Assembly: GCA_905234465.1 (NCBI GenBank)
Contig: CAJOHU010000004.1
Coordinates: forward strand, 1 to 45,901
Source: an uncultured Alphaproteobacteria bacterium
GTDB taxonomy: Bacteria; Pseudomonadota; Alphaproteobacteria; Rs-D84
Direction of reading: 5' to 3'
DNA length: 45,901 nt
The position numbers and the translations under genes are program-made. Each line of letters opens with the position of its first letter. The stretch's first letter is position 1. Positions 10,945 through 14,324 of the stretch are shown here, one piece after another. The notes under the pieces were generated by a model. It had not been told where the DNA came from, did no database searches, and saw nothing but the letters and a program-made list of their open reading frames with translations.

Positions 10945-13900
10945 TTATGCCTTTTCTATTGATATACCAAAGTTATATCCTTCTATATCCGCAAAGTGTT
11001 CTGCCGCGCCCGGTGACATTTCACGAATAAGCGCATCTGACATTATACGTTTCCGATGTTGTTCTATTGCACCAGATAGCGCCAAATCCGCTGTATAGGT
11101 CAAATTTATGCGGTCAGACACATCAAGTCCTATTTCTTTGCGAGTGTCTTGAATGAATCGCAGCGCATCGTTTGCCAAACCTTCGGCAATTAATTCTGAA
11201 TTTAATTCTGTATCCAAAATAACAACCGCCGTATTATCTGGCAACACCATACCGGTCACCCCATCACGAATGTTCAGACGATTTTCAAATTCATCAGAGT
11301 TCAATGTGTATTCGCCAACAATCAATTTATCGCCGTCCTTTTCATATTCACCACGCTTTACAGACGGAACAATTTCGCGCAACGCAGACCCCAGACGCGC
11401 GCCAATCTTTGGTGTCACCAAGTATATAAAACCATCTGCGACTTTATTCGCGCTGTCCAACCATTCAACAGTTTTTACATTTAATTCATCACGAATAATA
11501 TTGGTGTATTCGCGCATTGCCACCCCACCTGCAACTGTTAATTTATTAAGTGGCAAACGATTACGCAATTTATATTGTTCGCGCAATTGTTTCCCAACAG
11601 ATACAATTTCTTGAACCCGGCGCATATCGCCAACAATTTTTTCGTTCATTTCTATTGTTGTTGGGAAATCCGTTAAATGCACGGATTCTAAGCCTGTTAA
11701 ATTCTTGTAAATATATTCTGAAACAAATGGTGCAAATGGCGCAAGCACGCGGCACAGCATAATCAAAACCGTGTACAATGTATTAAATGCATCTGTGTCT
11801 TCGTCCCAGAAACGCGCACGCGAACGGCGTATATACCAATTATTCAACACGTCCAAGAATCTGACGAATTCTTTGACGGCAACATCCGGTTTATATTCTG
11901 CCAATGCTAAATCTGTCGTCTTTATCAACACATTCATTTCTGCCAGGATATATTCATCCAGCACATTGCGTGTCGGCGCCCCCCATACATCACGTGCGAT
12001 TATATTTGCAGCGTTCGCGTACAGCGTAAAGAAATGATACGCATTCCACAGTGGTGTCAGAATCGTCTTAATAGATTCTGCGAAAACTTTACCTTCTTTA
12101 TCAACTGGGACCGGTTCAGCCTTCATAAAATTACTGCCCAATATAAACAGACGAACCGCGTCTGCACCGTACACTTCCAATTGTTGTTCTGGGTTCACAA
12201 AATTGCCCAATGATTTAGAAAACTTGCGTTTGTTTTCATCAACAATCATACCATTCGCAGAAACTGTGCGAAATGCCGGCCTGTCAAATAATATAGCCGC
12301 AACCACCATCAATGAATAAAACCACCCACGTGTTTGGTCTTGACCTTCTATTATATAATCTGCCGGGAAAGTTTTTTCAAAAACATCTTGGTTTTCAAAC
12401 GGATAGTGCAGGGATGCAAACGGCATAGAACCAGATTCAAACCAACAATCTAAAACATCGGGTATACGTTTCCAACCATCTTTGGTTAGTGCATCCAGGG
12501 TTGGGCGATGCAAATCATTTATCTTAACACCAAAGAAGTCTTCTAATTCTGCAACAGACCCGAACACCTTGTATTCGCCGTTCTTTTCCCAAATCGGCAA
12601 TGGTACACCCCAAAAACGATTACGTGATATACCCCACGGGCGCACACCTTCTATCCAAGACATAAAACGATTACCCGCCGATGTCCATGTTGTGTCTTTC
12701 TTGGTTATTTCAACCAAACGGTCACGGATTTTTGGCACATCTATGTACCATGCATCTGTTGCACGATAGATAAGTTTTTCTTTGCTGCGCGGACCGAATG
12801 GATAACTGTGTTTATGCTGGTCCTTTTTAACCAGAATTCCATTAGAACGCAACCAATCAATAATCTTTGGATTCGCAACAAATATATTTTCACCCGCCCA
12901 ATCGGTCACCGTATTATCAAAATTACCATAATCATCAACATTTAATATCACCGGGAATTGTGGGTCAATCGCCTTGGCCACCATATAGTCGTCTTCGCCA
13001 TACGCAGGAGCAATATGAACGATACCGGTACCATCACTGTCGGAAACATAGTCCCCAGAAATCACCGTATACAGTCCGTGACCCGCCGCCGCCATATCTT
13101 TGTAATATGGGAAAATCGGCGTATAGCGCAAACCAATCATTTCAGACCCCATGACTGTTCCCAAATTTTCTGAATTTGCGAAAATCTTGTCGTATGCCCC
13201 AAGACGTGATTCTGCCAAAACATAAACATGACCATCATCGTGACGCATACGAACATATTTCATATTTTTGTTCACCGCCAATGCAGAATTTGCCGGCAAA
13301 GTCCATGGTGTTGTTGTCCACGCAACCGCACGGTCACCATTTTCTAATTCAAACCACACCGTCACCGTGTCATCAACAATGTCTTGATATTCGCTTGATG
13401 CTTCGGAATTAGATAAAACAGTACCCAATTTCCAATCATATGGGTTCACTTTGAAATCTTTGTACAATAATCCACGATTATACATTTCTTTGATTGCCCA
13501 TATCACAGATTCCATGAAATTTTTATCCATAGTACGATAACCATAATTATCGCCACCATCAACCCAACGCCCAACACGTTCAATAAACTTCAACCATTCG
13601 TTAGAGTATGTCATAACATCACTGCGGCACATGTCACAGAACGCAGCTATACCGTCATTTGCAACAATGTCTTTGGCGGTACGTTTTTGCTTTTTTTCAA
13701 CGGATGCTTCGGCAGGCAGACCATGGCAATCCCAACCCAACGCACGTTCTACATGTTTGCCTTTCATTGTTTGATAACGCGACACCATATCTTTGACCGC
13801 CGAAACCCCCAAATGCCCCCAATGTGGCAAACCATTGGCAAAGGGTGGACCATCATAGAATGAAAACGGGTGTCCCTGTTTCGTTTTTTCTAACGATTTA

Positions 13901-13989
13901 TGGAATGTGTCATCACTGCGCCAGAATTCTATTATCTGGTGTTCCATTGATGGAAAATCTGCCTTGGGTTCTGTTTTTGGGTATGCCAT
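10945..13989 (-). CDS. ileS: isoleucyl-tRNA synthetase
   Basis: FYDGPPFANGLPHWGHLGVSAVKD, GWDCHGLP, NKRKFSKSLGN. Confidence 0.97.
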   Translation of the reverse strand: MAYPKTEPKADFPSMEHQIIEFWRSDDTFHKSLEKTKQGHPFSFYDGPPFANGLPHWGHLGVSAVKDMVSRYQTMKGKHVERALGWDCHGLPAEASVEKKQKRTAKDIVANDGIAAFCDMCRSDVMTYSNEWLKFIERVGRWVDGGDNYGYRTMDKNFMESVIWAIKEMYNRGLLYKDFKVNPYDWKLGTVLSNSEASSEYQDIVDDTVTVWFELENGDRAVAWTTTPWTLPANSALAVNKNMKYVRMRHDDGHVYVLAESRLGAYDKIFANSENLGTVMGSEMIGLRYTPIFPYYKDMAAAGHGLYTVISGDYVSDSDGTGIVHIAPAYGEDDYMVAKAIDPQFPVILNVDDYGNFDNTVTDWAGENIFVANPKIIDWLRSNGILVKKDQHKHSYPFGPRSKEKLIYRATDAWYIDVPKIRDRLVEITKKDTTWTSAGNRFMSWIEGVRPWGISRNRFWGVPLPIWEKNGEYKVFGSVAELEDFFGVKINDLHRPTLDALTKDGWKRIPDVLDCWFESGSMPFASLHYPFENQDVFEKTFPADYIIEGQDQTRGWFYSLMVVAAILFDRPAFRTVSANGMIVDENKRKFSKSLGNFVNPEQQLEVYGADAVRLFILGSNFMKAEPVPVDKEGKVFAESIKTILTPLWNAYHFFTLYANAANIIARDVWGAPTRNVLDEYILAEMNVLIKTTDLALAEYKPDVAVKEFVRFLDVLNNWYIRRSRARFWDEDTDAFNTLYTVLIMLCRVLAPFAPFVSEYIYKNLTGLESVHLTDFPTTIEMNEKIVGDMRRVQEIVSVGKQLREQYKLRNRLPLNKLTVAGGVAMREYTNIIRDELNVKTVEWLDSANKVADGFIYLVTPKIGARLGSALREIVPSVKRGEYEKDGDKLIVGEYTLNSDEFENRLNIRDGVTGMVLPDNTAVVILDTELNSELIAEGLANDALRFIQDTRKEIGLDVSDRINLTYTADLALSGAIEQHRKRIMSDALIREMSPGAAEHFADIEGYNFGISIEKA

Positions 13990-14007: not shown

Positions 14008-14034
14008 TTATTATAAAAAACGGGCGCATGCGCG
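14008..14034 (-). promoter_or_regulatory. attenuator terminator hairpin before ileS
   Basis: Minus strand GGGCGC-GCAT-GCGCCC G TTTTTT (read from RC of aaaaaacgggcgcatgcgcgcccc). Confidence 0.65.
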
Positions 14035-14063
14035 CCCCAGCCAACGCCAAAGCGCGCCGCCGG

Positions 14064-14096
14064 TTATCCTATAATAATTATTGTTTTTTTGCTCAT
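14064..14096 (-). CDS. putative ileS leader peptide MSKKTIIIIG
   Basis: ATG AGC AAA AAA ACA ATA ATT ATT ATA GGA TAA: four consecutive Ile codons just upstream of terminator hairpin and ileS. Confidence 0.7.
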   Translation of the reverse strand: MSKKTIIIIG

Positions 14097-14248
14097 GTTG
14101 GTCACTTTAATATATAAAATAACAAAATTCCAGTATTTTTTTGCGCGACATCCGCCTGCGCCAATCTCGCTGTAACGAAGTGAAAGCGGAACGGCGAGAC
14201 ACTCAAAAATTTTAAATGCGCACACAGGTGCGCATTAACAATTTTTGG

Positions 14249-14324
14249 TGGTGCCGGTGATAGGACTTGAACCTACGACCCCCTCATTACGAATGAGATG
14301 CTCTACCAACTGAGCTACACCGGC
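14249..14324 (-). tRNA. tRNA-Thr(CGT) with encoded CCA
   Basis: GCCGGTGTAGCTCAGTTGGTAGAGCATCTCATTCGTAATGAGGGGGTCGTAGGTTCAAGTCCTATCACCGGCACCA. Confidence 0.95.

Follow-up and report, generated by a model that had tools for sequence, protein, structure and literature searches.

The ileS gene of this alphaproteobacterium is very probably controlled by a ribosome-mediated transcription attenuator that tunes its expression to charged tRNA-Ile. The gene lies in the window, the whole stretch of 45,901 nucleotides that was analysed. On the minus strand, a promoter-like pair is followed by a leader ORF, a GC-rich segment with alternative pairings, a terminator, and ileS (Table 1). The leader ORF (14096-14064) reads ATG AGC AAA AAA ACA ATA ATT ATT ATA GGA TAA. 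Direct reading confirmed the leader peptide named in the first-pass annotation, MSKKTIIIIG, with its four Ile codons ahead of a terminator. This terminator consists of GGGCGC (14037-14032), a GCAT loop, GCGCCC (14027-14022), a single G, and TTTTTT (14020-14015), and a terminator scan of the window recovers it independently. Twenty-five nucleotides separate its U-tract from the ileS start (13989), where an SD-like GGAG precedes the ATG. The gene itself scores 743.7 bits against TIGR00392 (cut-off 621.4). Sequence and comparison establish the ORF, Ile run, antiterminator, terminator, and spacing; translation, stalling, masking, termination, and induction at the leader are what we infer from them.

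Table 1. Positions of the leader elements and associated genes in the window.
Feature	Position	Strand	Basis or remark
tRNA-Thr(CGT), upstream of leader	14249..14324	minus	
Putative leader promoter, TGGAAT-17 nt-TAAAGT	14104..14132	minus	relatives keep TTGAtt/TGGAAA-17-TAwAwT
Leader peptide ORF, MSKKTIIIIG*	14064..14096	minus	kept in 65/66 same-genus ileS upstream regions
Regulatory codons ATA ATT ATT ATA (four Ile)	14070..14081	minus	3-5 consecutive Ile codons in 59/59 distinct relatives
Upstream hairpin, 14059-14052 with 14047-14038	14038..14059	minus	predicted in folds with ribosome on Ile4
Antiterminator 5' arm, GCGCGCUUUGGC	14046..14057	minus	RNAalifold, folds, pair counts
Antiterminator 3' arm, GCUGGGGCGCGC	14030..14041	minus	common to terminator 5' arm
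Intrinsic terminator, GGGCGC-GCAT-GCGCCC-G-UUUUUU	14015..14037	minus	direct reading and terminator scan
ileS, isoleucyl-tRNA synthetase, regulated gene	10945..13989	minus	TIGR00392
metG leader, MKRMQN*	9575-9555	minus	followed by GC hairpin and six U
metG leader hairpin, GGCGCC/GGCGTC	9521-9505	minus	six U at 9504-9499

The proposed pathway would begin with RNA polymerase starting at or beside the leader AUG and a ribosome translating a peptide of the form M-xxxx-IIII-K/R/G-stop. A ribosome at the stop codon would reach about 10 nt further with its 3' edge, masking the antiterminator 5' arm (UGCGC...). With this arm masked, GGGCGC would pair with GCGCCC and transcription would stop at the U-tract. 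Under scarce Ile-tRNA, the ribosome would stall at one of the Ile codons, some 17-26 nt before the 5' arm. The free arm would then pair with GGGGCGCA while the terminator 3' arm is still untranscribed, and polymerase would continue into ileS.

Relatives were used to evaluate this arrangement. The antiterminator, UGCGCUUU/GGGGCGCA, is mutually exclusive with the terminator, and RNAalifold, run unprompted on the alignment, picks the same pairing (5'-UGCGCUUUGG / GCUGGGGCGCA-3'). Its positions are paired in 94.6% of alignment cells, while slid controls pair in 28-62%. Double-sided changes occur at 4 of its 10 pairs, a count equalled by 1 of 500 shuffles. In two relatives, all three segments change together. 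L061 has GCAC in the antiterminator 5' arm, GUGC in the shared arm, and GCAC in the terminator 3' arm; L010 has ACGC, GCGU, and ACGC at the same places. Such joint change is what mutual exclusion predicts. Terminator hairpins with a U-tract are found in 59/59 sequences (median -13.1 kcal/mol). The alternative pairing claimed in the first-pass annotation holds, but the regulatory arm is located shortly past the stop codon, not inside the ORF.

The distance from the stop codon to the antiterminator 5' arm is 7-9 nt in 56 of the 59 sequences. With this spacing, a ribosome at the stop is predicted to mask the arm, and one stalled on the Ile codons to leave it free. For the folds, the ribosome 3' edge was assumed to lie 12 nt past the A-site codon's first base. 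By this computation, a ribosome on Ile4 leaves the 5' arm free to pair in 57/59 sequences. On the stop codon, it masks the first bases of the arm, and the computed pre-terminator fold is weaker by a median of 5.4 kcal/mol. At equilibrium, the full RNA in most sequences has the terminator plus an upstream hairpin as its minimum-energy fold in every ribosome state (43/59 with the ribosome on Ile1, 56/59 on Ile4). Since the terminator wins at equilibrium, the switch would have to work kinetically, with the antiterminator forming before the terminator 3' arm emerges. A kinetic decision is usual for attenuators, and we infer one here. The upstream hairpin is a candidate pause or anti-antiterminator structure. 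A ribosome on Ile4 masks only its lower part, whereas in trp the stalled ribosome prevents the 1:2 hairpin.

We asked how far the element is conserved. The first-pass annotation had proposed aligning the ileS leaders of relatives and had taken relatives lacking Ile codons as evidence against attenuation. Of the 66 ileS upstream regions from the genus, 65 contain the ORF, its Ile codons, and the rest of the element; they amount to 59 distinct sequences, from relatives that are not phylogenetically independent. The sole exception, L058, lacks the whole element and has a tRNA-Glu gene directly before ileS. This genome comes from horse faeces, and its tRNA-Glu lies at L058 2903-2977. With Ile codons, terminator, and alternative pairing all kept in relatives, the comparison supports the peptide-coupled isoleucine attenuation suggested at first reading.

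The peptide has one pattern: M and a short variable stretch, then 3-5 Ile, one residue that is usually K/R, and a stop. Across the 59 distinct sequences, the Ile run has four residues in 54, five in 3, and three in 2. Changes at Ile positions 1-4 are synonymous only (ATA/ATC; ATT/ATA/ATC; ATT/ATC; ATT/ATA/ATC), and each of the four positions before the run (residues 2-5) takes 8-11 different residues. The first Ile codon is ATA in 56/59 leaders, against 37% ATA among the Ile codons of five window genes. Because the first codon is mostly ATA, the leader would usually sample the tRNA-Ile that reads AUA as well as the one for AUU/AUC, a pattern that is only suggestive among such related genomes.

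Chance origin of the Ile ORF was rejected on the synonymous Ile run, the same-genus conservation, and Markov shuffles of the window. No other short ORF on either strand combines a run of at least three identical residues with a GC-rich hairpin and a U-run behind it. In first-order Markov shuffles, such ORFs number 0.05 per window, or 0.0 when the run is at least four. A dispersed repeat was also rejected. A whole-genome DNA search gave only partial matches of 30 nt and 26 nt (contigs C26 and C18); these cover the terminator end of the query, and the sequence read at both loci resembled ordinary coding sequence.

Codon counting gives no reason for the K/R that is conserved behind the Ile run. 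This residue could belong to a nascent-peptide arrest, in which IIII-K/R-stop at the C-terminus halts the ribosome from within the exit tunnel, perhaps by sensing free Ile, and codon occupancy plays no part. This reading would explain why the conserved part is the C-terminal IIII[K/R]* (K/R in 55/59) of an ORF of only 8-12 codons, but the last residue can also be G, E, Q, or absent. A stall at the stop would moreover mask the antiterminator arm, lowering ileS once the peptide is complete. The codon-gene matches in the genus (Ile/ileS, Thr/thrS, His/hisS) also fit tRNA charging, and we consider peptide arrest quite unlikely.

The element appears confined to the genus. A covariance model recovered it from 44 of the 47 genus genomes, each of which had a match at the ileS leader; a few extra matches in genus members were weak or at contig edges. 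In the 24 other nearby genera the model gave no match at E<=0.1, and a search of 289 class genomes, under strict filters that unrelated analogues could escape, gave none beyond the genus. Direct reading of 80 class ileS upstream regions revealed no IIII leader followed by a terminator, and the element was absent from the sampled upstream regions of other families of the order. On this survey and the absence from those families, ancestry shared with other members of the class was rejected. Three other alphaproteobacteria (L137, L138, and L141) have short ORFs ending I-I-P-stop before ileS. Their stop codon lies within CCC(C)TARGGGG with inverted repeats at its flanks, and they are possibly an unrelated type of ileS leader.

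The leader seems to have its own promoter. In the window, the -10 of the promoter-like pair ends 7 nt before the leader ATG. In 65% of the 46 leaders that have no close tRNA gene, the -10 stops 6-8 nt short of the ATG, vs 7% of shuffles. From this spacing we predict that transcription probably starts at the AUG and that the mRNA is leaderless. No clear Shine-Dalgarno sequence was seen before the leader ORF. Thirteen of the 59 relatives have a tRNA gene whose end lies no more than 60 nt upstream of the leader, and the two are perhaps co-transcribed there. The close gene was tRNA-Thr(CGU) in the 6 loci of that kind that were scanned.

These 13 relatives raise the alternative of a purely constitutive terminator, such as one serving the tRNA gene upstream, with the Ile ORF being chance or a translation-coupling uORF. 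In the window, however, the tRNA-Thr gene carries its own terminator-like hairpin (14236-14215), and most of the leaders come with a conserved promoter-like pair of their own. A plain terminator also needs no Ile run, antiterminator covariation, or fixed spacing. We regard this explanation as highly improbable. A near-identical element of about 50 nt (TTAATGCGCAC..GTGCGCATTTAAAATTTTTGAGTGTCTCGCCG) lies at 14240-14191 in the window and at G000:C18:19122-19173, after two different tRNA genes (tRNA-Thr in the window, another tRNA on C18). This post-tRNA element is a repeated terminator-like unit.

Control of ileS by tRNA-Ile charging has another known form. In Firmicutes, ileS is a common target of the T-box, a riboswitch whose leader RNA binds tRNA directly, without translation. 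In some Actinobacteria, too, ileS is a T-box target (PMC1262725). No Rfam match to a T-box structure was found in the window, where the matches at the gathering threshold are only three tRNAs. The predicted start-to-terminator distance of about 80 nt is short for a T-box, and what is conserved instead is a translated-looking ORF with cognate codons. We hold a T-box or other ligand-binding leader to be extremely improbable. The comparison with Firmicutes made in the first-pass annotation does not apply, as the host is an alphaproteobacterium.

The host genome is 0.9 Mb in 32 contigs. The relatives that share 70-90% identity with its ileS are alphaproteobacterial MAGs from rumen and gut, of which some bear the name Candidatus Enterousia. 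The order Rs-D84 (GTDB) has been described as having reduced genomes without amino acid biosynthesis (PMC12306168). We found no ilvD in the host genome or in 29 searched relatives; 14/14 control genomes were positive. With ilvD missing, the proposed response to Ile shortage would be raised synthetase rather than Ile synthesis. Stalled-ribosome attenuation of ileS in such a lineage would serve tRNA charging alone.

Judged by its sequence, the leader has the testable defining features of a known kind, the classical ribosome-mediated attenuator: a cognate-codon ORF, a terminator, an exclusive antiterminator, and the ORF position, this last by computation only. The pheST operon of E. coli, encoding an aminoacyl-tRNA synthetase, is regulated by an attenuator with a Phe-codon leader peptide (pheM), a terminator, and an antiterminator. 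The ileS leader resembles it in its cognate-codon peptide, terminator/antiterminator pair, and synthetase target. It differs in that pheST belongs to a gammaproteobacterium, uses Phe codons, and has an ordinary start, whereas the ileS leader is predicted to be leaderless. A leaderless attenuator ORF, with RNA starting at the AUG, has been demonstrated for trpL of Sinorhizobium meliloti (PMC7298713; PMC10117765). That system is likewise an alphaproteobacterial ribosome-dependent attenuator, but it uses Trp codons and controls trpE biosynthesis, and for the ileS leader the leaderless start is only predicted. Streptomyces trpS and leuS have bioinformatically predicted classical attenuators (PMC1262725), also on synthetase genes. 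They concern Actinobacteria and other amino acids, and ileS there has T-boxes. In Caulobacter crescentus, another alphaproteobacterium, the short ribosome-profiled CDS CCNA_03934 precedes ileS and served as a negative control; the accessible portion of that paper reports no attenuation (PMC4117421). The likeness is one of position. No published Ile-codon attenuator of ileS was found in our search. Priority is possible in Lopatovskaya et al. 2010, which lay outside it and which, from the excerpt of PMC4833913 that cites it, covers attenuation of aminoacyl-tRNA operons.

The small ileS leader is a highly conserved candidate switch that carries its own covariation tests. Beyond ileS, it suggests that minimal-genome gut symbionts, whose regulation is commonly presumed sparse, have cognate leader ORFs before several of their synthetase genes. 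Further cognate ORFs occur in the genus upstream of thrS, hisS, and metG, so that with ileS at least four genes have them. Leaders were not seen for valS, leuS, trpS, or tyrS, nor for three genes taken as serS, proS, and glyS, in the few genomes checked. Whether the four form a genus-wide network of cognate leader switches, a counterpart of the Firmicute T-box regulon, we put at about even odds. Such a network would include leaders on leaderless RNAs and a metG switch reading AUG codons in a leader of 5-6 residues (M(K)RMxx*).

Upstream of thrS, Thr-rich ORFs with up to seven Thr in a row end in TTPxGV directly before a CCCC/GGGG hairpin. They occur in nearly all same-genus loci examined (among L300-L329), and other families of the order have related ORFs with TTTT at three loci (L327-L329). 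In most genus members (L330-L356), hisS is preceded by ORFs ending HHA[HR]xG.. over a GCCC/GGGC hairpin. Both the thrS and the hisS hairpins fall within the ORF and have no strong U-tract, so their mechanism may differ from that of ileS. For metG, M(K)RMxx* is followed in 15 of 30 genus members by AACGGG, which is able to pair with the terminator CCCGUU. Among the 179 Arg codons of five window genes, 6 are CGA, the codon that this leader always uses for Arg.
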